Notes under the pieces: generated by a model | The model's input: only the letters and a program-made list of their open reading frames with translations | The model's database searches: none | What the model was told of the DNA's origin: nothing | From: Bolinopsis microptera | Lineage: Eukaryota; Ctenophora; Tentaculata; Lobata; Bolinopsidae | NCBI RefSeq assembly: GCF_026151205.1 | Contig: NC_087075.1 | Span: 15,513,628-15,577,627, forward strand | Length of the DNA stretch: 64,000 nucleotides | Direction of reading: 5' to 3' | Program-made: the position numbers and the translations under genes | Part shown: one piece after another, positions 8,560 to 64,000 of the stretch | Position numbering within the stretch: position 1 is the stretch's first letter | How the letters are laid out: each line of letters starts with the position of its first letter

Positions 8560-8690
8560 TCATATCTGGTTCCTGATTGGCCAGGTCCTCTCATAGTGAT
8601 GCACGTGACCGTTAAGGACCAGGTTCACTCCGTGTTCCACCAGTAAAGTCTCGTAATACTCCCGCCACCAGGTACACTCCGTGTTCCACC
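8560..8690 (-). pseudogene. Purple acid phosphatase-like (metallophosphoesterase) exon fragment
   Basis: The minus strand encodes YYETLLVEHGVNLVLNGHVH then HYERTWPI before a stop at 8560. The GHxHxYER block (GHVHHYER) is the last metal-binding motif of purple acid phosphatases (acid phosphatase type 7), whose usual form is VDLxxxGHxHxYERxxP. The upstream part of this peptide (YYETLLVEHGV) is the seed of the 49-bp array next door. No other phosphatase motif is found nearby and the TGA shortly after WPIRNQI is not preceded by a clear donor, so I treat it as an exon fragment or pseudogene. Confidence 0.7.
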
Positions 8691-11600
8691 AGTAAAGTCT
8701 CGTAATACTCCCACCACCAGGTCCACTCCGTGTTCCACCAGTAAAGTCTCGTAATACTCCCACCACCAGGTACACTCCGTGTTCCACCAGTAAAGTCTCG
8801 TAATACTCCCACCACCAGGTCCACTCCGTGTTCCACCAGTAAAGTCTCGTAATACTCCCACCACCAGGTCCACTGCGTGTTCCACCAGTAAAGTCTCGTA
8901 ATACTCCCACCACCAGGTACACTCCGTGTTCCACCAGTAAAGTCTCGTAATACTCCCACCACCAGGTCCACTCCGTGTTCCACCAGTAAAGTCTCGTAAT
9001 ACTCCCACCACCAGGTACACTCCGTGTTCCACCAGTAAAGTCTCGTAATACTCCCACCACCAGGTACACTCCGTGTTCCACCAGTAAAGTCTCGTAATAC
9101 TCCCACCGCCAGGTACACTCCGTGTTCCACCAGTAAAGTCTCGTAATACTCCCACCACCAGGTCCACTCGTAATACTCCCACCACCAGGTCCACTCCGTG
9201 TTCCACCAGTAAAGTCTCGTAATACTCCCACCACCAGGTCCACTCCGTGTTCCACCAGTAAAGTCTCGTAATACTCCCACCACCAGGTCCACTCCGTGTT
9301 CCACCAGTAAAGTCTCGTAATACTCCCACCACCAGGTCCACTCCGTGTTCCACCAGTAAAGTCTCGTAATACTCCCACCACCAGGTCCACTCCGTGTTCC
9401 ACCAGTAAAGTCTCGTAATACTCCCACCACCAGGTCCACTCCGTGTTCCACCAGTAAAGACTCGTAATACTCCCACCACCAGGTACACTCCGTGTTCCAC
9501 CAGTAAAGTCTCGTAATACTCCCACCACCAGGTCCACTCCGTGTTCCACCAGTAAAGTCTCGTAATACTCCCACCACCAGGTACACTCCGTGTTCCACCA
9601 GTAAAGTCTCGTAATACTCCCACCGCCAGGTACACTCCGTGTTCCACCAGTAAAGTCTCGTAATACTCCCACCACCAGGTCCACTCCGTGTTCCACCAGT
9701 AAAGTCTCGTAATACTCCCACCACCAGGTACACTCCGTGTTCCACCAGTAAAGTCTCGTAATACTCCCACCACCAGGTACACTCCGTGTTCCACCAGTAA
9801 AGTCTCGTAATACTCCCACCGCCAGGTACACTCCGTGTTCCACCAGTAAAGTCTCGTAATACTCCCACCACCAGGTACACTCCGTGTTCCACCAGTAAAG
9901 TCTCGTAATACTCCCACCACCAGGTACACTCCGTGTTCCACCAGTAAAGTCTCGTAATACTCCCACCACCAGGTCCACTCCGTGTTCCACCAGTAAAGTC
10001 TCTTAATACTCCCACCACCAGGTCCACTCCGTGTTCCACCAGTAAAGTCTCGTAATACTCCAACCACCAGGTCCACTCCGTGTTCCACCAGTAAAGTCTC
10101 GTAATACTCCCACCACCAGGTACACTCCGTGTTCCACCAGTAAAGTCTCGTAATACTCCCACCACCAGGTCCACTCCGTGTTCCACCAGTAAAGTCTCGT
10201 AATACTCCCACCACCAGGTCCACTCCGTGTTCCACCAGTAAAGTCTCGTAATACTTCCACCACCAGGTCCACTCCGTGTTCCACCAGTAAAGTCTCGTAG
10301 TACTCCCACCACCAGGTCCACTCCGTGTTCCACCAGTAAAGTCTCGTAATACTCCCACCACCAGGTACACTCCGTGTTCCACCAGTAAAGTCTCGTAATA
10401 CTCCCACCACCAGGTACACTCCGTGTTCCACCAGTAAAGTCTCGTAATACTCCCACCACCAGGTACACTCCGTGTTCCACCAGTAAAGTCTCGTAATACT
10501 CCCACCACCAGGTACACTCCGTGTTCCACCAGTAAAGTCTCGTAATACTCCCACCACCAGGTCCACTCCGTGTTCCACCAGTAAAGTCTCGTAATACTCC
10601 CACCACCAGGTCCACTCCGTGTTCCACCAGTAAAGTCTCGTAATACTCCCACAACCAGGTCCACTCCGTGTTCCACCAGTAAAGTCTCGTAATACTCCCA
10701 CCACCAGGTCCACTCCGTGTTCCACCAGTAAAGTCTCGTAATACTCCCACCACCAGGTCCACTCCGTGTTCCACCAGTAAAGTCTCGTAATACTCCCACC
10801 ACCAGGTACACTCCGTGTTCCACCAGTAAAGTCTCGTAATACTCCCACCACCAGGTACACTCCGTGTTCCACCAGTAAAGTCTCGTAATACTCCCACCAC
10901 CAGGTCCACTCCGTGTTCCACCAGTAAAGTCTCGTAATACTCCCACCACCAGGTACACTCCGTGTTCCACCAGTAAAGTTTCGTAATACTCCCACCACCA
11001 GGTCCACTCCGTGTTCCACCAGTAAAGTCTCGTAATACTCCCACCACCAGGTACACTCCGTGTTCCACCAGTAAAGTCTCGTAATACTCCCACCACCAGG
11101 TCCACTCCGTGTTCCACCAGTAAAGTCTCGTAATACTCCCACCACCAGGTACACTCCGTGTTCCACCAGTAAAGTCTCGTAATACTCCCACCACCAGGTA
11201 CACTCCGTGTTCCACCAGTAAAGTCTCGTAATACTCCCACCACCAGGTACACTCCGTGTTCCACCAGTAAAGTCTCGTAATACTCCCACCACCAGGTACA
11301 CTCCGTGTTCCACCAGTAAAGTCTCGTAATACTCCCACCACCAGGTCCACTCCGTGTTCCACCAGTAAAGTCTCGTAATACTCCCACCACCAGGTCCACT
11401 CCGTGTTCCACCAGTAAAGTCTCGTAATACTCCCACCACCAGGTCCACCAGTAAAGTCTCGTAATACTCCCACCACCAGGTCGACTCCATGTTCCACCAG
11501 TAAAGTCTCGTAATACTCCCACCACCAGGTACACTCCGTGTTCCACCAGTAAAGTTGCGTAATACTCCCACCACCAGGTCCACTCCGTGTTCCACCAGTA

Positions 11601-11900
11601 AAGTCTCGTAATACTCCCACCACCAGGTCCACTCCGTGTTCCACCAGTAAAGTCTCGTAATACTCCCACCACCAGGTCCACTCCGTGTTCCACCAGTAAA
11701 GTCTCGTAATACTCCCACCACCAGGTCCACTCCGTGTTCCACCAGTAAAGTCTCGTATTACTCCCACCACCAGGTCCACTCCGTGTTCCACCAGTAAAGT
11801 CTCGTAATACTCCCACCACCAGGTACACTCCGTGTTCCACCAGTAAAGTCTCGTAATACTCCCACCACCAGGTACACTCCGTGTTCCACCAGTAAAGTCT
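8630..11900. repeat. Minisatellite, 49-bp unit, about 66 copies, derived from phosphatase coding sequence
   Basis: The unit on the minus strand reads as ...EYYETLLVEHGV(D/Y)LV..., i.e. the same bases as the acid-phosphatase fragment at its low-coordinate end. As 49 is not a multiple of 3, the three frames rotate and no stop falls in the unit, so three overlapping minus-strand ORFs of 476-1113 residues arise; these are by-products. The main variation is a G/T switch giving D or Y. A few units are short (near 9165, 11450) and a few carry private changes. The array ends abruptly at LINE ORF2. Confidence 0.95.
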
Positions 11901-11904
11901 CTTT

Positions 11905-14255
11905 ATGCCGATGTCTTCGACTCTGAACATTTCAAGTTGGAACCTCAATGGTATTAAAGGTAACATTCTTAGGAGAGAACATTTAGTAAGTGACGCTAAA
12001 CGTTATCATTTCGATGTAGTGTGTCTCCAAGAGACAAAATGCCGAGACTTCGAGGAAACAATTATTGACGGTCACAAACTTGTAACACTAGCCCAATCAG
12101 ACAATTGGTATCATTATGGTCTCGGTTTTCTAATCTGCCCAGCCCTTGTACCTTCTATTGTTGCATGGAGATCACTTAGTAACAGAGTGGCTTTCATTGA
12201 TATAAGACTCACAGAACACAACGGATCTCATCGTATGATCAGGATCGTTAACGTGTACGGACCATCCAAGAAGATTGTCGATGATGACATCAGTAGGGTC
12301 ACAGTTAACTCCCCATTGTTACAATCATATTTCAATGATCTGAAAACTGCTATCAATATCCCAGCTCGATTCGATTTGTTTGTTGCTGGAGATTTTAACG
12401 CCCGCCTTGGGAGATGCAGTAGGAAAGAGTATGATGCTGGCCTTAATAATCATATTGGTCAGTTCGGTAATGGTCTGAGAAACAGGAACGGTTAGTTTCT
12501 ACTGGACTTTATTGTTGATAATGGTCTGTTTGCGTGCAATACTGCGTTCCAACACAGAGCGAAGTATATTACCACCTGGAAGGCTAGATGTGTTCCCAAG
12601 GGCAGACCCAAGGGTTCAAAAGACACTGTAAACTATTTTAAACAAATTGATTATATTTTATGTCGTACTAACTTTAAAGTCTGTTTAACAGACTCCCGCT
12701 CTTTTTGCGGTGATTTTGTGAAATCTGACAATAAACCTGTGGTCGCACGTTTTAAACTTGGTTGTGAATACATTGTACATTACATAAGCGGCCCAGGTCT
12801 GACGAAATAAGGTTTGATGTCAATCGCCTTAATGATTCTGATATTAAGTCTAAATTTTTTGATTCATTTAAAAGTAATATTGATTGTAGAGTTTTAACTA
12901 ATAATGCCATTTCTGAAAATTCTGATATATTTGGTATATTGAGTAAATGTGCCGTCCAGGTGGTTGGTAAAGTGCCCCCGGGGAAGCCTCATCAGTACAG
13001 CGACGATCCAACTGTCGTTAAACTTTCAGCAGAGAGAAAGTCCCTTCAGCAAGAATGTAGCCTCACAGGGATAAGTGACAGGAGTGACCTCAGAAAAAGA
13101 ATCAACCATCTCAAACGTACCATCAAAAAGAGGTTGAAATCCATCAACGAGGCCACTGCTAACGCCCTTGTAGATGTCATCAACAACACCGACAGCTGCA
13201 GAAGCATGTTTGAAGCGAATAGAACATTGGCCCAGTGTAGGATGAAGAAAGATGGAGTGACTGTCCACGACGCAGACGGCAACACCTTAGGTTCTGACTC
13301 ATTAAAAGCAGAAGCTATTAAAGAATACTTTAATAATGATTCAATGACAAAGATGAACCCCACCTCCCAGCATTCATAGACCCTCCTGGAAGCCTCCTCT
13401 GTCCCATAACACCTGAAGAAGTTGGCCGTGCTGTTATGAAGCTGAAATCCGGTAGAGCGTGTGGCCCTGACGGTATACCTAATGAGCTAATGAAAGCTGC
13501 TGGATATCCCCTCCACTGTGAGTTGGCTAGGATCTACAATCTCTCCTTTGAGACCAACACATACATCCCAGCTATTGGAGAAGGTATCCTGACACCCCTT
13601 CAGAAGCCAGGAAAACCCCGAGGTCCGATAAAGTCTATCCGGCCCCTCACATTACTAAATGGAACTAGAAAAGTCCTATCCCTCGTAGCCTTGAACAGAA
13701 TCAATTACCACGTTGATATGTACACTGGACCTTGGCAGGCGGCATACAAGCAGGGTCGCAGTTGTGCTGACCTGGTATGGTCTCAGAGAATGTTGACATC
13801 AGTGGTTACCAGGCGCGAGTTTGAGTATAGTAAAATCAACATTGACATGACCGCTGCGTTTAATACTATCCGCAGACAGACCATCATCAACCTCCTCATT
13901 GATGCAGGTTGCTCTAGAGACGATATTCGCCTAGTTCAGTACCTCCTCTCAAATACAAAGCTCAAGGTGACGGTCAACAGATCTGAGTCTGGTGAATTTG
14001 TGATTAATATTGGCGCTTACTAGGGAGACAGTCTGGCAGGTAAAGTGTTTACATTGACCCTTGCCGGTGCCCTGAATCACATCAGAGCCGTGATCAGTGT
14101 CACAATTCCTAGACCGAACCCCCCAGTCTCTGATAGAGGCCTCCCGTTAGAGTCCGCCTATGCTGACGATGCTGAGCTTCTGAGTGAAGATGGTCAGAGC
14201 CTGGTGAAGATACTAGAGATTGCCAGTGATATACTAAAGGATTGGAGTCTCTTTG
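11905..14255 (+). pseudogene. LINE ORF2, 5' part: AP-type endonuclease and reverse transcriptase, decayed
   Basis: The endonuclease begins with ISSWNLNGIKGN and has LQETKC and AGDFNARLG; after an in-frame TAG at about 12493 the frame continues (LLDFIVDNGLFACNT ... YFKQIDYIL ... SDNKPVVARF), so the TAG probably replaced CAG. Frameshifts follow near 12800 and 13355. The RT domain runs from GRACGPDGIPNELM through RPLTLLN, AYKQGRSCADL, a TAG near 14021 (again where Q is expected, before GDSLAGKVFTL) and the catalytic YADD (14159-14170). The element is broken at 14255 by a 7.96-kb insertion and resumes at 22223. Family is RTE/CR1-like at a guess. Two nonsense changes and at least two frameshifts show it is dead. 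Confidence 0.85.
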
Positions 14256-15385
14256 TTAAAGGATGAGGGGACCTTAGAAAAAGTTTTTTTCTCGTGCAAA
14301 TCCTTTTATTACATTAATCGTATAAACCACTTTAGTGAAATCCGCAAAGTTGTATTTCATTCGCGCGCCGAGATATCCAGCCAAAACAATTTGAACCTGT
14401 GACGTCAATTATGTGAGTTGCTCTGATCCGCGCATATAGAAATACAGGTAAAATGAGCGTGCGGGCCGACTAAATTACTAATTAAGAATAAATTAACAAT
14501 TTACGATACTAACGAGCCTATAACCAATGGAGAGGAGACTTTTTATGACCGGTTGAAAAAAGAATTATCACCCTACGATAACCATGAGCCGAGATACACC
14601 TGGAATAAGATTGAAGTCACACAGAAAGGCATGTAAATTATGTATATTTATAACTCCCAACGTAACACCTAGCAACTCCCTGTTTCGTACCACAGTTGAT
14701 ATATCAACATGTCATATCAACACAACACGGAGTAGAAGGGAATGTATGAAGGCCAGTCATCAAGTGACTCCCAGCCACTCACAGCACGCCCTCAGGTCAC
14801 ATGACAACACGTCACAAGGGTCACGTGACAGATCACATGTCATGTAACCACGTGACAAGCTCGTTAATTAAATGTCAAGGTCACGTGACAAGATAATCGA
14901 CCAATGAGGAGCCAGAACGTCATGACAAATCAATCAATAATCCCGACTAAAGGATCTAAAGTCTGATTAAACGGTCGCCAAGCAGGTTCCTGTTACTTGA
15001 TCACTGGTCACGTGTTTAGCTTAAGCATCATGTGACATGAATGTTATTTGAACCTCGAGATCACGTGACAGGAGTCACTTGATTACCCGTCAGAACGTCA
15101 TGATGAATAATTCAATAATCCTGTCTAAAGGATCTAAAGTCAGATTAAACGGTTGCCAATCACTTGGCTCCTGTCACTTGATTACCGGTCAAATGATTTT
15201 TCACGATTTACCCCGGTCCAGTCACCACTCCAAATAAGTAGAGGGTGACATAACGAAATGTGGTGTAGGGTTACCATCGCTCGACCTCCTGGAAATTACA
15301 AGGCTTATCATCAATTTTCTGACATTTAAGCAATAGCCACAGTATCTGAACCACATTTTTACCCTTTAAGATATAACAACTGTTA

Positions 15386-15450
15386 GGTAGCCTAGTGGTT
15401 AGAGCATCCGCCTTCTGCATAAAAGGTTCAGGGCGAATCCCATTGTCACC
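15386..15450 (+). ncRNA. tRNA-like sequence in left arm
   Basis: GGTAGCCTAGTGGTTAGAGC gives a perfect A box (TAGCCTAGTGG); the B box is split (GGTTCAGGGCGAATCCC, with extra bases). The ends GGTAGCC and GTCACC do not form a full acceptor stem. It is tRNA-derived, perhaps a pol III promoter or SINE relic. The mirror copy is at 20709-20773. Confidence 0.55.
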
Positions 15451-15686
15451 CTGCAGTCTAGGGAGTAGCAAAGGCTCCATACCATTGACTATTATTAACT
15501 ACTAAATTTGCGTGTTATAAATTTGGTGAATTTCAAGAGACGAATAAAACTACCGTTTTATGATAATTTTTTTTGTTATCACCATAATCATAAATTGAAA
15601 TCATCAAGAGTAAGATTGGGTACATAAATCAATCTATAACAGTTGTACGTTAATGGGGTTCTAGTACAGGTAGCTAGTTCCACCAA

Positions 15687-16376
15687 CTACTTATTCAGAT
15701 AAAGTTTGAGAATCTTATCGACAATAGTTGTGTTTTCGTTCATCAGTTTGTTTACATCAGATAGACTTGTAGTGTTGATAACTGCATCCAATAGAGCTCG
15801 TTCTTCCAAACTTAAAATACCTGTTATGTCTTTTCCGTTGTCAATGAAACGCTGCTTCAAGTCCACAAACAATTCGGTTTTCATCATGTATGAGAATAAC
15901 ATGTCAAAACATTTATCTTGCTCTTTACACAATTTACTTTGTAACATGACGTCTATAGATTTAAGTAATTTCGATATCTTTTTCTTGTTTGGTTGTTTGA
16001 TTGGTACTCCTTTCCGCTTGCCTACGTGTTTCCAGTCAGTATCAGATTCTAACTCTTTAGCACTATATTCTTTGTTGGACTCATCATCGCTACTTGTTAC
16101 ACCACTAAATTCATCATCACCACTACCTGGTACATCAGAGTTAGAACCACCTTGCTGAGATTCTTCAGAAACTATTGTATCAGCATCTGAACATACAGAA
16201 TCAGGACCCTCCATTTTGACATCAGTCGCATCTGAGTTAGCTTTTGACAGTGGCTGTAGAATTGCAGAACTTTGATCTAACTCTCGGTTCTCTCGATGAT
16301 ACCTACTAATGTGTGAGGACAGACTATATTTATTGGCAAAAGACTTGTCACAGAATGAGCAGGTTACAGAATTCAT
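15687..16376 (-). CDS. C2H2 zinc-finger protein, left-arm copy, 229 aa
   Basis: Intact frame starting MNSVTCSFCDKSFANKYSLS. One classical C2H2 finger at residues 6-27 (C-x2-C-x12-H-x4-H), then an acidic/serine-rich stretch (about 35-115), a basic patch (KRKGVPIKQPNKKK, about 120-135) and a helical C-terminal domain. The protein is identical to the copy in the right arm. The family is not recognised. It is the only protein-coding gene in the nested element, so it may be a DNA-binding or regulatory protein of that element, or a captured host gene. Upstream sequence (above 16376) consists of short GCATATAATN repeats. Confidence 0.75.
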   Translation of the reverse strand: MNSVTCSFCDKSFANKYSLSSHISRYHRENRELDQSSAILQPLSKANSDATDVKMEGPDSVCSDADTIVSEESQQGGSNSDVPGSGDDEFSGVTSSDDESNKEYSAKELESDTDWKHVGKRKGVPIKQPNKKKISKLLKSIDVMLQSKLCKEQDKCFDMLFSYMMKTELFVDLKQRFIDNGKDITGILSLEERALLDAVINTTSLSDVNKLMNENTTIVDKILKLYLNK

Positions 16377-16394
16377 AACTGCAGTACAAACGTT

Positions 16395-18000
16395 TTATAA
16401 TGCTATGCAACAACCATTATATAGCAATAATCGCATAAAATCGCAAATAATCGCAAAATAATCGCATATAATCGCATATATTAGCATATAATTGCATATA
16501 ATAGCATAAAATTGCAAATAATCGCATATAATTGCAAAATAATTGCATAAAATAGCATATAATAGCATATAATCGCATATAATCGCATATAATAGCATAT
16601 AATAATAGCATATAATCGCATCTAATCATATATAATCACGTATATTATCTCTTAAAATCACATTTTATTATTTATACTCGCAAATAATTGCATATAATTG
16701 CAAATAATCGCATATAGTAGCAGGGAGAATATGATTCAACTTATACATTCAACATATTAAAGATCTTTTCAAAGATTTATTAATTATTTTCATGCTGATT
16801 GCCAAGCATCATCCTGGAGATGAAACTGTAACTCTTGAGTCTACCAAAGACTGCACCCAACATGTAGGAATACTTCCTAGTGGGGACATTAAAGAACCAC
16901 ACCAGACAGGACAAGGAGATCATGGTGAATTCTACGTCAACTAGCCAGACGGAGATCATCTTCGAGATCTATCACTTTCTGGATTATCATTCATAACCAG
17001 TAGTCAGCGCACCATTGATTTCTGCTTTCAAATGATAACTGCTAATACTCTTGTCGATTTTAATGCACAGAAACCAGCATTTGACCGGGACCGGGGCCGG
17101 GATAGCTCAAAAATTGCCAAACCCGGTACCGGGAATCCCGGTCGATTACTGGTGCATGCAACTGACCAGGTTTAGGTATCAGGTGATTCTGCAATTTGGT
17201 AGTTGTGAAACATCACCTTGGATTTCTGTTGTCACAAAACATACCTTTTTAGACCTTTTCTCAAAGCATATAAAAGCATATATTAGCATATAATAGCATA
17301 TAATCGCATGACCAGGTTTAGGTATCGGGTGATTTTTCCTGCAATTTGGTAGTTGTGGAACATCACCTTGGATTTCCGTTGTTACAAAACGTACCTTTTT
17401 AGACCTTTTCTCAAAGCATATAATAGCATATAATAGCATATAATCGCATATAATAGCATATAATAGCATATAATAGCATATAATCGCATATAATCGCATT
17501 TAATAGCATTCAATCACATATATGATCCATTGGGTGGGCGAAAATTGTCCCCCGACAATTGACCCCCGACAATTGACCCCCCCGACAATTGACCCCTCGA
17601 CAATTGACCCCCCGACAATGTAACTCAATACAACATCACCTCATACCATACTCCTCACGGTTCTCTTGATCTAGGAAGAATGCACCTTTGTTGTGGTGTG
17701 CCACACTCCACATGGACAAATCTCACGATACTCTTGATTTAAGAAGTAGGTACTTTTGTTGTGATGTGCCACACTCCACATGAACAAATCCGCTAAATAC
17801 TGAATAAATGCCGAATACTGAATGAATACTGAATAAATACTAAATGAATACTTAATGGATACTGAATGAATACTGAATGAATACTGAATGAATACTGAAT
17901 GAATACTGAATGAATACTGAATGAATACTGAATGAATACTGAATTGCAGTTCAATCGCCAGCATATAATCGCATATAATAGCATATGATAGCATATAATT
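16395..18000. repeat. Short tandem repeats inside left arm
   Basis: Three families are packed here: a 10-bp unit GCATATAATN (16430-16630, 17270-17510, 17955-18000), a 10-bp unit AATACTGAAT (17800-17945) and GACAATTGACCCCCC (17545-17625). A 115-bp direct repeat starts at about 17165 and again at about 17310 (CAGGTTTAGGTATC ...). A CCGGGACCGGGGCCGGG stretch at about 17086 resembles the subrepeats of the hAT-type MITE at 30562. No gene. Confidence 0.85.
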
Positions 18001-18159
18001 GCATTATATGCGATTATATGAATACATGTTGGAGATGGAACTATAACTCTTGAGTCTACCGAATGCGATTATATATGAGTATTAGTGAGTATGAGTATAA
18101 TAATATGCTATTACATGCTATTATATGCTATTATATGCGATTATATGCAATTATATGCA

Positions 18160-19765
18160 ATTATATGCTATCATATGCTATTATATGCGATTATATGCTG
18201 GCGATTGAACTGCAATTCAGTATTCATTCAGTATTCATTCAGTATTCATTCAGTATTCATTCAGTATTCATTCAGTATTCATTCAGTATTCATTCAGTAT
18301 CCATTAAGTATTCATTTAGTATTTATTCAGTATTCATTCAGTATTCGGCATTTATTCAGTATTTAGCGGATTTGTTCATGTGGAGTGTGGCACATCACAA
18401 CAAAAGTACCTACTTCTTAAATCAAGAGTATCGTGAGATTTGTCCATGTGGAGTGTGGCACACCACAACAAAGGTGCATTCTTCCTAGATCAAGAGAACC
18501 GTGAGGAGTATGGTATGAGGTGATGTTGTATTGAGTTACATTGTCGGGGGGGTCAATTGTCGAGGGGTCAATTGTCGGGGGGTCAATTGTCGGGGGTCAA
18601 TTGTCGGGGGACAATTTTCGCCCACCCAATGGATTATATATGTGATTGAATGCTATTAAATGCGATTATATGCGATTATATGCTATTATATGCTATTATA
18701 TGCTATTATATGCGATTATATGCTATTATATGCTATTATATGCTTTGAGAAAAGGTCTAAAAAGGTACGTTTTGTAACAACGGAAATCCAAGGTGATGTT
18801 CCACAACTACCAAATTGCAGGAAAAATCACCCGATACCTAAACCTGGTCATGCGATTATATGCTATTATATGCTAATATATGCTTTTATATGCTTTGAGA
18901 AAAGGTCTAAAAAGGTATGTTTTGTGACAACAGAAATCCAAGGTGATGTTTCACAACTACCAAATTGCAGAATCACCTGATACCTAAACCTGGTCAGTTG
19001 CATGCACCAGTAATCGACCGGGATTCCCGGTACCGGGTTTGGCAATTTTTGAGCTATCCCGGCCCCGGTCCCGGTCAAATGCTGGTTTCTGTGCATTAAA
19101 ATCGACAAGAGTATTAGCAGTTATCATTTGAAAGCAGAAATCAATGGTGCGCTGACTACTGGTTATGAATGATAATCCAGAAAGTGATAGATCTCGAAGA
19201 TGATCTCCGTCTGGCTAGTTGACGTAGAATTCACCATGATCTCCTTGTCCTGTCTGGTGTGGTTCTTTAATGTCCCCACTAGGAAGTATTCCTACATGTT
19301 GGGTGCAGTCTTTGGTAGACTCAAGAGTTACAGTTTCATCTCCAGGATGATGCTTGGCAATCAGCATGAAAATAATTAATAAATCTTTGAAAAGATCTTT
19401 AATATGTTGAATGTATAAGTTGAATCATATTCTCCCTGCTACTATATGCGATTATTTGCAATTATATGCAATTATTTGCGAGTATAAATAATAAAATGTG
19501 ATTTTAAGAGATAATATACGTGATTATATATGATTAGATGCGATTATATGCTATTATTATATGCTATTATATGCGATTATATGCGATTATATGCTATTAT
19601 ATGCTATTTTATGCAATTATTTTGCAATTATATGCGATTATTTGCAATTTTATGCTATTATATGCAATTATATGCTAATATATGCGATTATATGCGATTA
19701 TTTTGCGATTATTTGCGATTTTATGCGATTATTGCTATATAATGGTTGTTGCATAGCATTATAAA
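18160..19765. repeat. Short tandem repeats inside right arm (mirror image)
   Basis: Reverse-complement copy of the left-arm repeats, same order mirrored about position 18079. Confidence 0.85.
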
Positions 19766-19782
19766 ACGTTTGTACTGCAGTT

Positions 19783-20472
19783 ATGAATTCTGTAACCTGC
19801 TCATTCTGTGACAAGTCTTTTGCCAATAAATATAGTCTGTCCTCACACATTAGTAGGTATCATCGAGAGAACCGAGAGTTAGATCAAAGTTCTGCAATTC
19901 TACAGCCACTGTCAAAAGCTAACTCAGATGCGACTGATGTCAAAATGGAGGGTCCTGATTCTGTATGTTCAGATGCTGATACAATAGTTTCTGAAGAATC
20001 TCAGCAAGGTGGTTCTAACTCTGATGTACCAGGTAGTGGTGATGATGAATTTAGTGGTGTAACAAGTAGCGATGATGAGTCCAACAAAGAATATAGTGCT
20101 AAAGAGTTAGAATCTGATACTGACTGGAAACACGTAGGCAAGCGGAAAGGAGTACCAATCAAACAACCAAACAAGAAAAAGATATCGAAATTACTTAAAT
20201 CTATAGACGTCATGTTACAAAGTAAATTGTGTAAAGAGCAAGATAAATGTTTTGACATGTTATTCTCATACATGATGAAAACCGAATTGTTTGTGGACTT
20301 GAAGCAGCGTTTCATTGACAACGGAAAAGACATAACAGGTATTTTAAGTTTGGAAGAACGAGCTCTATTGGATGCAGTTATCAACACTACAAGTCTATCT
20401 GATGTAAACAAACTGATGAACGAAAACACAACTATTGTCGATAAGATTCTCAAACTTTATCTGAATAAGTAG
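19783..20472 (+). CDS. C2H2 zinc-finger protein, right-arm copy, 229 aa
   Basis: Same product as the left-arm gene, residue for residue, in opposite orientation so that the two genes are divergent with their starts facing the centre of the palindrome. Conservation of both copies indicates a young element or gene conversion between arms. Confidence 0.75.
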   Translation: MNSVTCSFCDKSFANKYSLSSHISRYHRENRELDQSSAILQPLSKANSDATDVKMEGPDSVCSDADTIVSEESQQGGSNSDVPGSGDDEFSGVTSSDDESNKEYSAKELESDTDWKHVGKRKGVPIKQPNKKKISKLLKSIDVMLQSKLCKEQDKCFDMLFSYMMKTELFVDLKQRFIDNGKDITGILSLEERALLDAVINTTSLSDVNKLMNENTTIVDKILKLYLNK

Positions 20473-20708
20473 TTGGTGGAACTAGCTACCTGTACTAGAA
20501 CCCCATTAACGTACAACTGTTATAGATTGATTTATGTACCCAATCTTACTCTTGATGATTTCAATTTATGATTATGGTGATAACAAAAAAATTATCATAA
20601 AACGGTAGTTTTATTCGTCTCTTGAAATACACCAAATTTATAACACGCAAATTTAGTAGTTAATAATAGTCAATGGTATGGAGCCTTTGCTACTCCCTAG
20701 ACTGCAGG

Positions 20709-20773
20709 GTGACAATGGGATTCGCCCTGAACCTTTTATGCAGAAGGCGGATGCTCTAACCACTAGGCTACCT
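20709..20773 (-). ncRNA. tRNA-like sequence in right arm
   Basis: Mirror copy of the tRNA-like sequence at 15386-15450, with the same intact A box and split B box. Confidence 0.55.
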
Positions 20774-21411
20774 AACAGTTGTTATATCTTAAAGGGTAAA
20801 AATGTGGTTCAGATACTGTGGCTATTGCTTAAATGTCAGAAAATTGATGATAAGCCTTGTAATTTCCAGGAGGTCGAGCGATGGTAACCCTACACCACAT
20901 TTCGTTATGTCACCCTCTACTTATTTGGAGTGGTGACTGGACCGGGGTAAATCGTGAAAAATCATTTGACCGGTAATCAAGTGACAGGAGCCAAGTGATT
21001 GGCAACCGTTTAATCTGACTTTAGATCCTTTAGACAGGATTATTGAATTATTCATCATGACGTTCTGACGGGTAATCAAGTGACTCCTGTCACGTGATCT
21101 CGAGGTTCAATAACATTCATGTCACATGATTACATTCAAGTAACAGGAACCTGCTTGGCGACCGTTTAATCAGACTTTAGATCCTTTAGTCGGGATTATT
21201 GATTGATTTGTCATGACGTTCTGGCTCCTCATTGGTCGATTATCTTGTCACGTGACCTTGACATTTAATTAACGAGCTTGTCACGTGGTTACATGACATG
21301 TGATCTGTCACGTGACCCTTGTGACGTGTTGTCATGTGACCTGAGGGCGTGCTGTGAGTGGCTGGGAGTCACTTGATGACTGGCCTTCATACATTCCCAT
21401 CTACTACACGG

Positions 21412-22198
21412 TCCTAATAAAAATGGATCGGGTAGGTATGAAATGCATGTCTTCATTCCAGTTGGACAAGCACCAAGCTTTTAAGTTCTAACTCACTATG
21501 TGACACTACTTATAACGTAAGCAAGATTTGCAACTATTACACCAAGCAATATTATACCAAGCATAGCAGACGAACACATCCACATTCGTTACGCTTTACA
21601 CTCAAGTCACAGCAAACTAAAACGGTAAATTATAAATGAGTTTACAACTAAAGGCCGGTACAGCGCAGTGTCAAACCGCACGTGCGTACTCAGATAGGAC
21701 TAGAGGCGCCAAGGGCCAGCTAGTAAAATGTCTTCTACTACATCATACATTCTTTTTAATTGTGTCCATATCGGGTTTCAAACAAGTCAAAACAAAATAG
21801 CAGTTTGTGGTTTAGTTACCGGATGCTACTTATCTTAGCTATTTATAAATAGAAATACCTACTACAACTACAAGAAAGCCTTTCTGAGTTACATTTAACT
21901 ATTATTATTAAAGAGAATTATTCGTAACTTAGACTAATTCAGTGCAACCAAAGATACCGCTCTCGCAAACGCCAAAGGTAACACGACGTAATTAAAACAG
22001 AACAGAACAAAATGTTGACACGAGCAAAGGGTGCGCGCGCACGTTGGTCTTAACACATAAGTGACGTCACAGCCCAAAATTGCTATCAGCCAATAGGAGC
22101 GCGGCGTGATATTGCACGAATTATCGATTTCACAGTCCGGCGTATTTTTTGATTCTACACACTTTCACAGGACTTAAACGCGAATATTTGGAAGTAAA
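21412..22198. other. Body of the TTAA element right of the nested insertion
   Basis: About 790 bp without an ORF of note. It contains GC-rich CpG patches (GTGCGCGCGCACGTTGG near 22030) and GTGACGTCAC near 22060, a CRE-like palindrome. No transposase motif is visible. Confidence 0.6.
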
Positions 22199-22222
22199 TT
22201 CTAAGGTCCCCTCATCCTTTAA

Positions 22223-22930
22223 CGAATCAAAGACGGTGTTTACAAGAGTGTATTTGGCAGATACAGATGCTTTAGATGCCCATGGCAATAAAATTAGAGG
22301 AGATGAAGAGTGGCGAGAGTCAGTGCTATTAGGATCAAAGCTCTGTTCAGAAAGAGATATTGTCAACAGACGCAACAAAGCCAATGTTGCCTTCTACACC
22401 TACAAGAAAGTCTGGTTGAATAGTTCTGTTCAGATCAGTGAGAGTAGAAAGCTGAAGCTGTACGAAGCTCTTGTCACTTCAGTGTTGTTGTATAACTGTA
22501 GCAGCTGGGCTGCTCCTGAAACCGTAATGGCATCTGTCGACGTTCTTCAAAGGAAGCATCTGAGACAGATAATCAACACCTATTGGCCTACGGTTATCAG
22601 TAACGAGAATTTATATAAGAGATGTAACGTCAGACCCCTTACTGAAAGGATCAAGAAAGCAAAATGGAAGATGCTTGGGCACGTTCTCAGAAGCAGTGAT
22701 GACACTCCGATCCCGCCTTCTTATCTTTCAGATTTGCATGTTTAGGATGTCTTGACTACAAAGGAAAAAGGGGCAGACCTCGTTCAAATTTATTTGATTT
22801 ATTATTGAAAGACATTATGACAAAGAACATTATTGTGATTGTAAATAAAAGATTTAGTTTAAGTAATTTCAACGATTTAGTGTACAAACTCAAAGCTCAT
22901 GATAGACGCTTATGGAGAAGCTATGGGTGA
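22223..22930 (+). pseudogene. LINE ORF2, 3' part: RT thumb and C-terminal region
   Basis: Continues the frame broken at 14255: NESKTVFTRVYLADTDALDA, then KLYEALVTSVLLYNCSSWA, LRQIINTYWP and KMLGHVLRSSDDTP. A frameshift near 22740 moves the end to another frame, where KGKRGRPRSNLFDLLLKD and HDRRLWRSYG precede a TGA at 22928-22930. LGHVLR followed by RGRPR is typical for the C-terminus of RTE-like LINE proteins. Confidence 0.85.
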
Positions 22931-37400: not shown

Positions 37401-40400
37401 TAACTGCGCAATGTTTCTGGGGCAAAATTTTCGTTTATTTTCGTTTATTCCGACAAGAAAAAGGCTCTCATCCTTGTCGCAATAAACGTGGACATTACAT
37501 GTGTGCCCCAGAAACATTACAACAATGCGGCTAATAAATAACGTACCCGGGCAACAACGAGAATAGAGCTGATGAGGGTTGTGAGCTAATAAATAACGTA
37601 CCCGCGCAACAACGAGAATAGAGCTGATGAGGGTTGTGAGCTAATAAACAACGTACCCGCGCTACAACGAGAATAGAGCTGATGAGGGTTGTGAGCTAAT
37701 AAATAACGTACCCGCGCTACAACGAGAATAGAGCTGATGAGGGTTGTGAGCTAATAAATAACGTACCCGCGCTACAACGAGAATAGAGCTGATGAGGGTT
37801 GTGAGCTAATAAATAACGTACCCGCGCTACAACGAGAATAGAGCTGATGAGGGTTGTGAGCTAATAAATAACGTACCCGCGCTACAACGAGAATAGAGCT
37901 GATGAGGGTTGTGAGCTAATAAATAACGTACCCGCACTACAACGAGAATAGAGCTGATGAGGGTTGTGAGCTAATAAATAACGTACCCGCGCAACAACGA
38001 GAATAGAGCTGATGAGGGTTGTGAGCTAATAAATAACGTACCCGCGCAACAACGAGAATAGAGCTGATGAGGGTTGTGAGCTAATAAATAACGTACCCGC
38101 GCAACAACGAGAATAGAGCTGATGAGGGTTGTGAGCTAATAAATAACGTACCCGCGCAACAACGACAATAGAGCTGATGAGGGTTGTGAGCTAATAAATA
38201 ACGTACCCGCGCAACAACGAGAATAGAGCTGATGAGGGTTGTGAGCTAATAAATAACGTACCCGCGCAACAACGAGAATAGAGCTGATGAGGGTTGTGAG
38301 CTGATAAATAACGTACCCGCGCAACAACGAGAATAGAGCTGATGAGGGTTGTGAGCTAATAAATAACGTACCCGCGCAACAACGAGAATAGAGCTGATGA
38401 GGGTTGTGAGCTAATAAATAACGTACCCGCGCTACAACGAGAATAGAGCTGATGAGGGTTGTGAGCTAATAAATAACGTACCCGCGCAACAACGAGAATA
38501 GAGCTGATGAGGGTTGTGAGCTAATAAATAACGTACCCGCGCAACAAAGAGAATAGAGCTGATGAGGGTTGTGAGCTAATAAATAACGTACCCGCGCTAC
38601 AACGAGAATAGAGCTGATGAGGGTTGTGAGCTAATAAATAACGTACCCGCGCAACAACGAGAATAGAGCTGATGAGGGTTGTGAGCTAATAAATAACGTA
38701 CCCGCGCAACAACGAGAATAGAGCTGATGAGGGTTGTGAGCTAATAAATAACGTACCCGCGCTACAACGAGAATAGAGCTGATGAGGGTTGTGAGCTAAT
38801 AAATAACGTACCCGCGCTACAACGAGAATAGAGCTGATGAGGGTTGTGAGCTAATAAATAACGTACCCGCGCCACAACGAGAATAGAGCTGATGAGGGTT
38901 GTGAGCTAATAAATAACGTACCCGCGCAACAACGAGAATAGAGCTGATGAGGGTTGTGAGCTAATAAATAACGTACCCGCGCAACAACGAGAATAGAGCT
39001 GATGAGGGTTGTGAGCTAATAAATAACGTACCCGCGCTACAACGAGAATAGAGCTGATGAGGGTTGTGAGCTAATAAATAACGTACCCGCGCTACAACGA
39101 GAATAGAGCTGATGAGGGTTGTGAGCTAATAAATAACGTACCCGCGCTACAACGAGAATAGAGCTGATGAGGGTTGTGAGCTAATAAATAACGTACCCGC
39201 GCTACAACGAGAATAGAGCTGATGAGGGTTGTGAGCTAATAAATAACGTACCCGCGCTACAACGAGAATAGAGCTGATGAGGGTTGTGAGCTAATAAATA
39301 ACGTACCCGCGCTACAACGAGAATAGAGCTGATGAGGGTTGTGAGCTAATAAATAACGTACCCGCGCTACAACGAGAATAGAGCTGATGAGGGTTGTGAG
39401 CTAATAAATAACGTACCCGCGCTACAACGAGAATAGAGCTGATGAGGGTTGTGAGCTAATAAATAACGTACCCGCGCAACAACGAGAATAGAGCTGATGA
39501 GGGTTGTGAGCTAATAAATAACGTACCCGCGCTACAACGAGAATAGAGCTGATGAGGGTTGTGAGCTAATAAATAACGTACCCGCGCTACAACGAGAATA
39601 GAGCTGATGAGGGTTGTGAGCTAATAAATAACGTACCCGCGCAACAACGAGAATAGAGCTGATGAGGGTTGTGAGCTAATAAATAACGTACCCGCGCTAC
39701 AACGAGAATAGAGCTGATGAGGGTTGTGAGCTAATAAATAACGTACCCGCGCAACAACGAGAATAGAGCTGATGAGGGTTGTGAGCTAATAAATAACGTA
39801 CCCGCGCTACAACGAGAATAGAGCTGATGAGGGTTGTGAGCTAATAAATAACGTACCCGCGCTACAACGAGAATAGAGCTGATGAGGGTTGTGAGCTAAT
39901 AAATAACGTACCCGCGCTACAACGAGAATAGAGCTGATGAGGGTTGTGAGCTAATAAATAACGTACCCGCGCTACAACGAGAATAGAGCTGATGAGGGTT
40001 GTGAGCTAATAAATAACGTACCCGCGCAACAACGAGAATAGAGCTGATGAGGGTTGTGAGCTGGCACACCACCACCACTATGCACATGTCAATCATCGGG
40101 AAGAAACTGTTGTCTGCGTTCTGAGAGTTTGGTAACATTAAGTTAAATTTAGTTAAATTTAGAAACATTTAGCTAAATTTTGTACAAATTTTCTGTTATT
40201 GTTGTTATGAATTAGGTTCATTTTTGAACAAAATAACAATTATCATGTTTTAGAACATTTGAATAGTAGGTACAATGTACTGTCGGGTCCCCAGGTAATG
40301 AACAATATACTGGGGGGGTCCCCAGGTAATGAACAATATACTGGGGGGTCCCCAGGTAATGAACAATATACTGGGGGGTCCCCAGGTAATGAACAATATA

Positions 40401-43400
40401 CTGGGGGGTCCCCAGGTAATGAACAATATACTGGGGGGTCCCCAGGTAATGAACAATGTACTGGGGGGTCCCCAGGTAATGAACAATATACTGGAGGGTC
40501 CCCAGGTAATGAACAATATACTGGGGGTCCCCCAGGTAATGAACAATATATTGGAGGGTCCCCAGGTAATGAACAATATACTGGGGGGTCCCCAGGTAAT
40601 GAACAATATACTGGGGGGTCCCCAGGTAATGAACAATATACTGGGGGGTCCCCAGGTAATGAACAATATACTGGGGGGTCCCCAGGTAATGAACAATGTA
40701 CTGGGGGGTCCCCAGGTAATGAACAATATACTGGAGGGTCCCCAGGTAATGAACAATATACTGGGGGTCCCCCAGGTAATGAACAATATATTGGAGGGTC
40801 CCCAGGTAATGAACAATATACTGGGGGGTCCCCAGGTAATGAACAATATACTGGGGGTCCCCAGGTAATGAACAATATATTGGGGGGTCCCCAGGTAATG
40901 AACAATGTTATAATGTGATGTTATTAACTGTTATCATTCAGGATGTTTTGACTTGGTTACTTTGGAACTTGGAATCACTGTTTTACTTTGTACTAAATGG
41001 CGACGAGGATTATAGAACCCATGCAACTGGACAACGTAGAGGATTGGCTTGAGCGGTTGGACCAAGCAATTTCATGTTGCATAGTCCAAGAAAAACTGAC
41101 AGAAGAAGAGGCCAAAAACAGTTACTCAGTATCGTTGTTGTTGTCGAACATTGGACAAATGGGGTACAAGGTGTTGAAATCATATTGTGCACCGGACAAA
41201 CCTGCCAAGAAAACATACAATGATCTTGTAAAACTGCTGACCGAAAATCTGGCTCCAGCGTTAGATGCAGTATCAGAAGGGTATCGTTTTAACCTGATGA
41301 AGCAGGAATCTGGAGAGGGGCTAAGCCTTTACATGTCACGAGTCAAGGAAAAGGCAAATGTGTGCAACTTCGGAACTTTTTACGACCGTATGGTCAAGGA
41401 CCGTTTTCTGTATGGATTGAGAGATTCGAATATCAGATCTTATTTGCTAACTAAAGCAAACTTGGACACATCTGCAAAAGTCCTAACAGCAGCTATAGCA
41501 AAAGAAAACGCGATGACAGCTAATTCAGCCATGTCAGGTTACGGGTCAGCACCATCTGCTCATTTTGTCCATAAAAAACACCATTATGGGGGACAATCGG
41601 AACAAGGTCAGATGAAAGGTTATCGCCCTGGTGATAAAGGACTGGTTTGCTCAAAATGTACATTGAAGGGCCATAAGGCTCCGGATTGCAAAGTGAAATG
41701 TAGAAACTGTCACCAGACCGGTCATATCAGAGCAAACTGTTTAAAGGGGAAACGCCCAAAACAGAACAATGTGGGTGAAGCAGATGATGATGATGTTTAC
41801 GGGGATCAGGAACATGTTTACGGGGATCAGGAACATGAGTATATGATGAAAGTGGATGTTTTATCGGAGGATTCTCCAGTTATATGTAATCCTGATCTGT
41901 CACCTGAACCTTGCATCTATCTACCTGTTGATCCAGTCAACTATCCCCTCAAGGGGAACTCTGCTCCTGATTTCCAACATTCTCATGACGAGAATGACTC
42001 ATCCAACTCCATGGGGAGTTCGAGTTTGAGTGAAGCTGAATCTGCTGTAAGTTATGATTGTACAGTAGAATGTATGTCGACTGTGTCGAGTAGAGTTTGT
42101 TCTGAAAATCAAATTTCTGTTTGTGAATCCCGTGATATGGTTTGTCATTTTCGAAGTAGAAAACCCATGATTTTGTTATTACTAAATGGGAAACCAGTCG
42201 AGTTTGAATTAGACACTGGTGCTGCTTTAACATGTATTTCTAAACCTAAGTTTTCACAGCTAAATTTGAATGATTGCAAGTTGATAGATAGTGTTAAAAC
42301 TCTTTGTGTAGCCAATGGTCAAACAGTTAACGTTTGCATGATTGCCAAAACATCCGTCAAATTTAATGGCACATCTCATGGAGAGATGAATTTGCATGTG
42401 GTGGACTCTTGCTTTCCTACCTTGCTGGGTCGGGACTGGATCGAGAGACTTTTCGGGCCAGAGTGGTTCGGTAGGCTGGTTAATGCGGCAACTGTATCTA
42501 CTAGTGAATGTCATGAGAAATTTGCAGAAGAGATGAAGAAAAGTCCCATTTTCATGCCTGGAGTAGGAGTTGTGAAAGGGTACGAGGCCCGTTTAAACCT
42601 GAAAGAAGGAGCTAGGCCGAAGTTCTGCAAAGCTAGAGTGACAGCTTTCTCGATTAGGGGGAAAACAGAAGATACATTGAAACAGATGATAGCAGAGGGC
42701 CTGCTGGTTCCTGTTGACAATTCAGAGTGGGCTTCTCCCATTGTGCCGGTGGCCAAGCCAGATAAAACGATCAGTGTGTGTGGAGACTACAAGTCCACAC
42801 TCAACCCTGCACTAGATACCAAGACTTACCCTCTTCCGACAGTTGATGAATGCTTTGCTGGCATGGTTGGAGGAAAACTGTTCTCGAAGATTGATATTAA
42901 GAGTGCCTACAACAGCTTACTCTTAAGGAAATGTGATCAAGCTCTGACGACTCTGAATACTCAGCTTGGTTTACTAATGTGGACACGCCTTCCTTTTGGC
43001 ATCAACTCAGCTGGAGCTCAATTTCAAGCTACAATCGATGAAGTACTGACAGGGATTCGTCAAACCTGTTGCCGGGTGGATGACATTCTGATAACGGGAT
43101 TTAATGACGAGGAACACATGTCAAATGTCAGACAGGTGATAAAGAGACTGGAGGACGCTGGATTTCGCTGCCGATTAGACAAATCTGAATTCATGCAACC
43201 TTCGGTGATTTACTTGGGTCACGTGGTGTCTGCCCAAGGGATAAAGCCTGTCAGCTCAAAAGTGGAGACTCTGGTGAAAGCTCCATTTCCCGAAACGAGA
43301 GAACAGCTGGTTTCGTTCCTCGGAGCCGTGCAGTACTACGCCAGGTATCTACCTAACATGTCGACTGTAATTGAACCTCTCAACCAGCTCAGATCGGCAC

Positions 43401-46400
43401 AGACAAAGTGGGTATTTGGGAAAGAACAGAAAGAAGCGTTCAACAAATTGAAGGAAATGCTAACGTCTGAGAGAGTACTTGCGTTTTACGATCCTTCTGT
43501 TCCTCTAAAAGTAGATTGTGATGCAAGTTCAGTTGGTCTTGGTGGGGTGATATCGCATAAGTATTCTGATGGTACAGAAAAACCGATTGAATTCGTGAGT
43601 AGGACATTGACTGATGCGGAGAGGAGGTATTCTCAATTGGACAGAGAGGCGTTAGCGATTATTTGGTCCCTAAAGAAGTTCCACAAGTATGTTTACGCGG
43701 TCCACTTCCAGTTGGTGACGGACAATAAACCTCTCCAATATATTCTGCATCAAAACAAGGGTATTCCAGAGATGGTGATTAGCCGATTACAAAGATGGGC
43801 TTTGATTCTAGCTAATTATGATTACACCATATCATACCGTCCGACTGGAAAGCATGCAAATGCTGATGTATGCTCTCGTTTCCCATTGAAAATCAAAGAC
43901 ACACCTGCTAGTACACACCCGGACAGTCTAGTTTGTGACGGTGTAAATGAGTGTGAAACGTGTAAAGATGAAATTTACACTGTCTTTGTTGGAGAGGATA
44001 AGCCGTTGTTGAACTCTGCACTGATCTCTAAGATGTCGAGAACAGATCCGTTACTTGCTAAAGTTATAATGTTTACTCTGGAGGGATGGACTAAAAGACC
44101 GAAAGTTGTTAAGAACAAGACAATTTCGGGAGATTCTTTCGAGGCTGCTTTTAAACCGTATTATGAGAAACAGACGGAACTCTCTGTGGATAAAGGATGC
44201 TTGATGTGGGGTGGACGGGTTATCATTCCAACTAAAATGAGACCGGACGTTCTGGAGCTATTACACAGCACCCACATGGGTTCATCAGCTATGAAGAACA
44301 TGGCCAGGAGGTACATGTGGTGGCCGCTGATGGATGCTGAGATAGAGAAAGTGTCTAAGACGTGTAAGAGTTGCCAAAGTGTACAGCCACTGCCGAAGAA
44401 AGCTCTTCCACACCCGTGGGACGTTCCAGATCAACCATGGCAACGACTGCATTTGGATTTTGCTGGTCCCTTCCAGGGTTCTATGTGGTTAATTGTCGTG
44501 TGTGCGTATTCCAAGTGGTTGGAAGTGAAAGACATGAAGCAAAATACGACGGCTGCAAATCTGATTAAGAAATTGAGGGAGTTATTTGCCTGTTTTGGAC
44601 TCCCAAAGGTTTGTGTAATGGATAATGGTCCGCAGTTATCTCGCTCTACGGAGTTTGTAACGTTTCTGTCGAAGAACGGAATCAAGTGCGTCCCTATTCC
44701 CAGTTACCATCCCAGTAGTAATGGCCAAGCTGAGAATCAGGTACTTCAATTTAAACGTGCTATTAAGAAAATGACAGCTGATCATCCGGGGGATATCACA
44801 ACCAAACTCTCACAATGGTTGTTTCAGTACCGAAACACTCCGCACAGCACCACCGGGATAGAGCCTGCCGTTCTTATGTTTGGACGTCGACCTAGAACTG
44901 CGTTAAGTTTGTTGAATCCGTGCACAAACGATTCTAAATATGAGGAAAAAGTTGCTGAACAGCGAGAGAAACTCCGGAGTCAACCCTTAAGATCTTTTGA
45001 CGTCGGAGATAAAGTGTATTATCGGGATGTTCGCCACAATAAGTGGAATGAAGGTGTCGTTCAGTCACTTGAAGGATCAAAGATTGTGATTATTGAAGCA
45101 GAAGGACAGGGGTCTTTAGTCCGAAAGCATCTCGACCATGTGGTAAAGCGGGTAGAAAGCGAGAGTAAACCCGTACAGCCTCCTATAGTTGCATTAAATA
45201 ATGGTAAACCTGACAGTTTAGAAATGGCATTACATAATGGCAAGCCTGATAGTGTAGACCACAGTCTGGGACAGACTAGTACTGAAGTAGTTGAACAAGA
45301 GCAAACTAAACCTGACGGTATTGCAGTAGAGCATGAACCACGTCCCAGACGCCACGTTACTGCACCTGACCGGCTAAGTTATGATAAGTTAGGAGGGAAA
45401 TAACCTTTAAGGTTATATTGTAATGTCACAGAATCACTATAAATTTTAAGACTGAACGTTGTAAGAGACAGGACTCACATCATATTTTACTTGTAATGTA
45501 TTGCCGATTTTAACTATTGAATTAATGTTGTAAGAGACAGGACTGAAAACTGATTTACCGTATGTTATTTAATTTATACCGTGAATGAATTTTTACTACC
45601 AAATCGAATTGAACAAAGGAAACGTGTTTTTTGAGGATGTTTTATTATTACATTTCAGATTTATTTATTTGTATCAGTAGTACTAAGATTTTAGAACGTT
45701 GACAAATTGGAATTTTCCGATAATTTATGGTTCGACTCGAATTTTGGAGTCAAGTGAGGCACTTTGCGCCATGTGTGGGACAAATTACTGTAACGTATCT
45801 TTTTCTACTAGCAAAATGAAAGTTAATTTTATAGAAAGTTTTTCGCGCTGCAGTATGCATAGATTTTAAGCGTGCCATGCCGCGCATTGAGCACGTATGT
45901 TTATTTATTATTTATTGAATTTCAATGTTTGACGAGTTCATATTTTAAATAGGGGGATGTTATAATGTGATGTTATTAACTGTTATCATTCAGGATGTTT
46001 TGACTTGGTTACTTTGGAACTTGGAATCACTGTTTTACTTTGTACTAAACAATATACTGGGGGGTCCCCAGGTAATGAACAATATACTGGGGGGTCCCCA
46101 GGTAATGAACAATATACTGGGGGGTCCCCAGGTAATGAACAATATACTGGGGGGTCCCCAGGTAATGAACAATATACTGGGGGTCCCCAGGTAATGAACA
46201 ATATACTGGGGGGTCCCCAGGTAATGAACAATATACTGGGGGGTCCCCAGGTAATGAACAATATACTGGGGGGTCCCCAGGTAATGAACAATATACTGGG
46301 GGGTCCCCAGGTAATGAACAATATACTGGGGGGTCCCCAGGTAATGAACAATGTACTGGGGGGTCCCCAGGTAATGAACAATATACTGGAGGGTCCCCAG

Positions 46401-63256: not shown

Positions 63257-64000
<744 letters not shown>

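Follow-up and report, generated by a model that had tools for sequence, protein, structure and literature searches.

Polintons (Mavericks) are generally regarded as viruses that have become integrated into animal and protist genomes. To our knowledge, their replication cycle is hardly known; the original Polinton paper is said to have proposed that the excised DNA folds via its terminal repeats. Vertebrate Mavericks have AG..CT ends of the AGT-AGT type (PMC8097293), and the element Tlr was once proposed to be a non-autonomous Polinton derivative (PMC4028283). A stretch of 64,000 nucleotides from the ctenophore Bolinopsis microptera (NC_087075.1, positions 15,513,628 to 15,577,627; hereafter, the window), which is part of contig C4 in a genome of 264.65 Mb, contains a palindromic element with Polinton-type ends and a zinc-finger gene in each arm. 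The data suggest a stripped-down passenger on Polinton machinery. As an explanation of the whole, we lean towards a palindromic satellite of Polintons that would be replicated as a hairpin and inserted by a helper.

The element lies inside a TTAA element, which in turn lies inside a non-long-terminal-repeat (LTR) retrotransposon of the long interspersed element (LINE) type. The features of this nest are the following (window coordinates, with the strand where one applies).

13340..14259, plus strand: left part of the LINE reverse-transcriptase frame, up to and including the first TTAA; RVT_1 match over 13340-14020 (E = 2.2e-7)
14256..14259: left TTAA target duplication
14260..22218, plus strand: outer TTAA element, 7959 bp (1278 bp minus the insert), with 20-bp perfect terminal repeats
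14725..14730: left copy of the 6-bp target duplication ACACGG
14731..21405: inner palindromic element with Polinton-type ends, 6675 bp, genome position C4:15528358-15535032
14731..18004: left arm
14731..15092, plus strand: left end common to two Polintons, 92.0% identical over 362 bp to both ends of a Polinton on contig C7
15687..16376, minus strand: zinc-finger gene of the left arm, an open frame of 229 amino acids (aa)
17728..17907, minus strand: left copy of centre block C900 (from the block map), one-sided in four canonical copies
18005..18154: unpaired centre (turning point), about 150 nt
18155..21405: right arm
18252..18431, plus strand: right copy of centre block C900 (from the block map)
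19783..20472, plus strand: zinc-finger gene of the right arm, an identical copy of the 229-aa frame on the left; zf-C2H2 match (E = 1e-4) below the curated cut-off
21136..21405, minus strand: right end common to Polintons, 93.3% identical over 270 bp to the C7 Polinton
21406..21411: right copy of ACACGG
22219..22222: right TTAA target duplication
22223..22745, plus strand: right part of the LINE frame, which matches the frame of the left part once the flanks are joined; DUF6451 match (E = 5.8e-4) below the cut-off

The coordinates of all three levels are exact. When the LINE flanks are fused with one TTAA, a single frame runs through the site; the in-frame stop at 14021-14023 is a separate lesion. 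Both other copies of the outer element that were examined (L063 and L064; L numbers denote loci and C numbers contigs) represent the empty site, with a single ACACGG and no insert. The left part of the outer element has 115 candidate copies, of which 40, itself included, were scored and are 98-100% identical; judging by this identity, the element looks young. It has no long open frame, the longest stop-free stretch in L063 and L064 being 101 aa.

In the palindrome, the four long arm blocks (2015, 526, 397, and 270 nt) are printed as 100% complementary, and BLAST gives an arm identity of 99.63% for the outermost 270 nt and 99.80% for the remainder. The arms differ by A versus T at position 7, by single changes at positions 799 and 2794, by a small replacement near 271-296, and by changes near the turning point. 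Searches for the Polinton integrase, ATPase, presumed capsid, and PolB genes give no match within the element, and the only arm frames of more than 100 aa are the zinc-finger frame, its antisense frame, and frames derived from repeats. A preliminary description of the window had claimed exact duplications at both levels, a LINE frame restored by removal of the insert, and an inner element with Polinton-like termini (here, AG..CT ends with terminal inverted repeats that run to hundreds of bp) and a 6-bp duplication but no Polinton core genes; all of this holds. Its account of the content, as almost nothing except two long arms, is right about the arms and left unmentioned the one intact gene that each of them carries. 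By eye, the left-arm segment at 15386-15446, like its mirror image on the right, resembles the head of a tRNA-derived short interspersed element, with promoter-box-like words; ARAGORN and Rfam find nothing there.

The end motif AGTAGAWGGGAATG has 33 matches in the genome, compared with a single match for the reversed control and about 4 expected by chance. These matches make up 14 pairs and 5 unpaired matches; among the latter, L024 (C7:5418217) continues as the terminal repeat, and L023, L025, L026, and L027 do not. One pair delimits a Polinton (C7:16159956-16172003), the other 13 are members of the palindrome family, and exact 6-bp duplications flank 13 of the 14. Gene matches led to another five copies of the family, whose ends deviate slightly from the motif; all five have exact duplications (read by eye). 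In total, 17 of the 18 family copies with both ends read are flanked by an exact 6-bp duplication, a count that excludes further terminal-repeat matches such as C4:8123868-8130590. The exact duplications, together with the within-element identity of the last 18 nt described below, reject chance pairing of ends. The palindromic copies read span 5.6-9.6 kb, and one of them (L021) has lost part of one arm gene. On one side of another (L010:300-9913), there are three tandem copies of an arm/centre unit of about 1.4 kb.

Two Polintons have the same ends. In the larger (C1:8045654-8064101; 18,448 bp), both ends are 93% identical to the first 456 bp of the palindrome, and the flanking duplication is an exact ATGGGT. 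It contains an integrase match at 8050772 (99% identical to that of the C7 copy at the aa level), an ATPase match at 8051396, a 435-aa frame at 8053722 in the position presumed for the capsid gene, and a piece of PolB at 8056114 (minus strand; 260-aa open frame). The C7 Polinton (12,048 bp) has an exact 6-bp duplication as well; Pfam searches detect rve (3.6e-5), weak AAA/FtsK/A32-type matches, Peptidase_C48 (0.016), and DNA_pol_B_2 (0.0048) in it and no profile match for its presumed capsid protein. The zinc-finger gene has no match inside either Polinton among 127 matches (150 of 165 candidates scored), and its comparison with the Polinton pieces tested gives a best E value of 0.34. By our own count, the genome has 28 further integrase loci, with an ATPase match near each. 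Inverted pairs are also seen for the presumed capsid gene (C9:8585060-8592588 and C1:336443-357308), the C9 pair enclosing integrase and ATPase matches. IMG/VR contains no relatives of the zinc-finger protein, the PolB-like piece, or the presumed capsid protein, and no useful match was found among solved structures.

None of the outcomes that the preliminary description had named as refuting was seen in the genome search: other copies exist, all but one of the 18 read have exact duplications, and the larger elements found with the same ends are Polintons, both of them integrase-bearing (18.4 and 12.0 kb). Its suggestion that the inner element moved in trans is well supported by these integrase-bearing Polintons, the shared terminal repeat, and the 6-bp duplications, and transposition in trans by a Polinton is very probable on this comparison.

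The arms of an element have been copied from each other. Fifteen of the 18 copies could be compared across the outermost 2000 bp, after exclusion of L012 (both arms) and of the right arm in L015 and L021 for one-sided insertions or losses. In 14 of the 15, all but L014, the left and right arms are mutually nearest, with 99.4-100% identity, compared to 96.7-99.2% for the best other element. In 19 of 20 elements (the 18 family copies and the 2 Polintons), both ends have the same terminal 18 nt, the exception being the window copy; shuffling of the ends gives a mean of 3.85 identical, and none of 100,000 shuffles reaches 19. Judged from these alignments, the arms of one element are shown to be copies of each other.

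The block map of the centres, made with BLAST, extends this pattern. In the canonical copies L011, L016, L019, and L020, the matching arm blocks enclose an asymmetric centre about 1 kb long (1.8 kb in L020). The window copy lacks most of this centre and has C900 on both sides, at nearly equal distances to the next block (123 and 124 bp). In L014, the block of the opposite side, C0, is found on both sides with an equal spacing of 96 bp, and L022 has a partial second C900. The window copy and L014 look like products of half-copying across the centre in two directions. The asymmetric centre contains a tRNA-like sequence (Rfam tRNA, 37.2 bits; gathering score, 29) in three of the four loci searched, all except L062:

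L016:3582-3646, tRNA-like sequence (Rfam tRNA)
L019:3407-3471, tRNA-like sequence (Rfam tRNA)
L022:3783-3847, tRNA-like sequence (Rfam tRNA)

ARAGORN predicts no tRNA in the window and none in 16 other loci. A tRNA gene in the window copy is rejected by this result and by the lack of Rfam matches at 14200-22300. The other Rfam matches, MIR7723 in L062 and tmRNA in L022, are below the gathering scores.

The zinc-finger gene is conserved. At an identity of at least 91%, 34 of 35 full-length matches are free of stops; the near-complete copies at C4:8124814 and C7:5416376 have one stop each. The diverged relatives in L061 and L062 retain the frame with 65-71% aa identity, and the gene is the only part of the window element that can be aligned with these two. 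In L061 (C1:3741000-3745300), each of two arms about 950 bp long carries the gene; no Polinton-type ends are recognized in it, and it is outside the duplication counts. Between families, the ratio of nonsynonymous to synonymous substitution rates (dN/dS) is 0.38-0.48, with P values of 3.1e-5, 1.4e-6, and 0.0015 for three pairs. Inside family 1, the 16 frames of group B give 0.30 and all pairs taken together give 0.82; the pairs are non-independent, and groups A and B were drawn after the identities were known. From these ratios, selection on the gene over long times is clear, and recent selection in group A, which holds the window copy, is not shown. A gene-less deletion derivative is rejected by the purifying selection on the arm gene between families. 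A single-sequence structure model of the protein has a mean predicted local distance difference test score of 44.6.

L062 (C5:1787045-1792726) represents a second palindromic family: it has ends AGTAGTGTAAGAGG, the duplication CTGACC, and the gene in both arms, which are 99.9% identical over 2390 bp. Eight further pairs with L062-type or related ends all have exact duplications (9 of 9 with L062), and there are at least four others beyond the nine read. The end pattern of this family has 22 matches versus 33 in the reversed control; because a run of T inflates the control, only paired ends were used. By these ends and arms, the palindromic form is one that recurs in a diverged family.

One of the eight pairs (C7:14206006-14219758; 13.75 kb) encloses a single zinc-finger gene and a 761-aa frame. 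We take this frame, on the basis of motifs in L082 and L083, to be the exonuclease part of a family-B polymerase; Pfam finds no polymerase in it. Its homologues are found near integrase, ATPase, and presumed capsid matches at five loci (C9:6.18M, C1:5.57M, C10:15.69M, C2:17.19M, and C10:13.49M). Among its close homologues (at least 87% identity), four of five have a zinc-finger gene within about 8 kb (those on C7, C12, C13, and C4 but not C11:19.99M), and the elements of these close homologues have no integrase or ATPase match.

The zinc-finger gene has six distant homologues, with 30-35% identity. Five of these (C9:2284277, C3:11680977, C7:1352503, C1:15213112, and C3:8644893) are located 2.0-3.0 kb downstream of a PolB match on the same strand, compared with 0.014 expected for proximity alone. 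The sixth (C6:20829709) has four stops, the weakest score, and no PolB nearby. Besides single copies, PolB genes form at least five inverted pairs. These span 5-13 kb, in several cases with 1261-aa open frames in both arms, and are the following:

C7:6691366-6704713, PolB inverted pair, genes at 6691366 and 6704135
C9:6595419-6607843, PolB inverted pair, genes at 6595419 and 6607265
C9:663217-673329, PolB inverted pair, genes at 663217 and 672751
C13:13625156-13631358, PolB inverted pair, genes at 13625156 and 13630777
C8:6279907-6285860, PolB inverted pair, genes at 6279907 and 6285291

These pairs are possible palindromic elements with a polymerase of their own.

If the inner element is a Polinton satellite, its cycle might proceed as follows. 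The polymerase of the helper would start protein-primed replication at the shared ends, and the displaced strand would fold back along its whole length. Synthesis on this hairpin, or mismatch repair in it, would then make one arm the template of the other, a step for and against which we see the chances as even. Occasionally the turn might fall inside the centre, with one half copied across, as in the window copy. The helper integrase would insert the linear DNA and thereby produce the 6-bp duplication. Because its distant homologues adjoin PolB, the zinc-finger protein might be active in replication, through end binding or priming; we propose this role tentatively and consider it rather doubtful.

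Several observations weigh against this interpretation. The duplication of L009 (C1:24844786-24851176) is imperfect (ATCATC/ATCAGC), L012 is only 25% paired, with most of one arm lost, and the arms of L014 come from two groups and are 95.7% alike, so that copying is incomplete there. In the same non-independent comparisons of the gene, dN/dS is 1.45 between groups A and B and 3.6 within A (six pooled synonymous differences), and the selection test of the window copy against L010 gives a P value of 0.44. The capsid and PolB labels come partly from our judgement of gene order and motifs. No integrase locus, and so no candidate helper, was found inside the listed end pairs of the second-family type.

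The main rival explanation of the arm identity is chromosomal gene conversion. The element would then be a non-autonomous Polinton of the ordinary sort, with inverted repeats that have expanded and are kept alike by conversion before or after transposition, with no hairpin; we regard this as unlikely, though a serious contender. Near-perfect inverted arms are good substrates for conversion. Such conversion has been proposed for the fly element Galileo, in which repeat-only copies are 98-100% alike within a copy, and there are tract-extended repeats and chimeras; the same source cites an earlier report of inverted-repeat expansion in Polintons (PMC3573991). Two points speak mildly against conversion here: the chimeric L014 has an exact duplication (TGGGCC), as opposed to the non-matching flanks of Galileo chimeras (PMC3573991), and one-sided insertions or losses persist in L012, L015, and L021.

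Much less probable is a different integrase-type mover, such as Ginger, with the likeness to Polintons borrowed or accidental. Ginger elements encode a Gypsy-like integrase, and Ginger2 targets 6-bp sites, but their ends are TGTNR, and the targets are the 4-bp CCGG/CCGT for Ginger1 and RTATAY for Ginger2 (PMC2836005), whereas the palindrome has AGTAG ends, diverse duplications, and 362 bp of end in common with integrase-bearing Polintons. Long perfect palindromes are a known type of assembly or sequencing artefact, formed when fold-back reads are assembled, but this is scarcely credible in view of the exact duplications flanking 17 of 18 copies, the same asymmetric centre in four canonical copies, the slight arm differences in many copies, and the empty site in L063 and L064.

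To return to the satellite interpretation, a bolder version of it, which we offer as speculation and think improbable as a whole, is a long-lived lineage of hairpin-replicating Polinton satellites. Its palindrome would be inherited and rebuilt by half-copying, its replication-linked zinc-finger gene would be related to the neighbour of PolB, and its DNA might be packaged in helper particles, like virophages and transpovirons; the inverted pairs of PolB would be palindromic relatives that encode a polymerase themselves. Even apart from this, arm copying within an element leaves a record of the Polinton cycle, or of host repair, in the sequence, through which the folding step can be tested. If the satellite interpretation is true, virus-like transposons have a parasite that carries its own conserved gene, and the element illustrates how palindromes of nearly whole length spread as mobile elements.

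The rest of the window contains other repeats and frames. A Gypsy-type pol frame at 40997-45400 (1468 aa, stop-free; RT_RNaseH at 5.9e-33, RVT_1, and integrase domains) is flanked by arrays of 30-bp tandem repeats at 40272-40906 and 46048-46827. A 698-aa open frame at 4311-6404 matches the NERD nuclease-related domain (E = 3.2e-8), with weak helicase-like matches. Large tandem-repeat arrays occupy 1-1684, 8618-11901, 37530-40062, and 63278-64000, with units of 45, 49, 55, and 6 bp that are 97-98% alike. Repeats account for the long frames at 8560-12002, of which the one tested has no Pfam match.

In the literature searched (titles and abstract openings of mostly open papers, with repeat databases outside its scope), we found no paper on palindromic gene-bearing Polinton satellites, and the phrase non-autonomous Polinton/Maverick was not found in the papers searched. 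The idea of non-autonomous Polintons and the expansion of Polinton repeats are already in print, and palindromic gene-bearing satellites are unmatched in this literature.

Among known systems, Polintons are similar to the inner element in their 6-bp duplications and in the terminal repeat that two of them share with it here, and its AG..CT ends match the AGT-AGT type of vertebrate Mavericks. The palindromes differ in their size of 5.6-9.6 kb, palindromic structure over nearly the whole length, and a zinc-finger gene per arm. The inner element is not classed as a full Polinton because the core genes were not found. As a non-autonomous Polinton derivative, it has what such an element should have, a terminal repeat shared with an integrase-bearing Polinton of the same genome, which presumably mobilizes it. 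The TGTNR ends and the CCGG/CCGT or RTATAY targets of Ginger are not seen in the palindrome. Foldback-like, repeat-only copies of Galileo (P superfamily) likewise consist of little more than two long, internally repetitive arms that are near-identical in each copy, with chimeras and extended repeats (PMC3573991). However, Galileo has 7-bp duplications and a P-type transposase, whereas the palindrome has 6-bp duplications, Polinton ends, and a conserved arm gene.

Transpovirons and virophages are comparable as small linear DNAs with terminal repeats that depend on a larger element of viral type. The length of transpovirons is about 7 kb, most contain internal tandem repeats, and they encode zinc-finger proteins (PMC11788076). 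They differ in having a helicase gene and in being episomes associated with giant viruses, whereas the palindromes are chromosomal and tied to Polintons. No helicase gene is present among the arm frames of more than 100 aa, Pfam having been applied to the zinc-finger frame alone. Protein-primed viruses such as adenovirus form palindromic defective genomes, in which one end is duplicated in inverted form by turning round during replication. Those palindromes arise anew, whereas the palindromic form described here is common to whole families of insertions.

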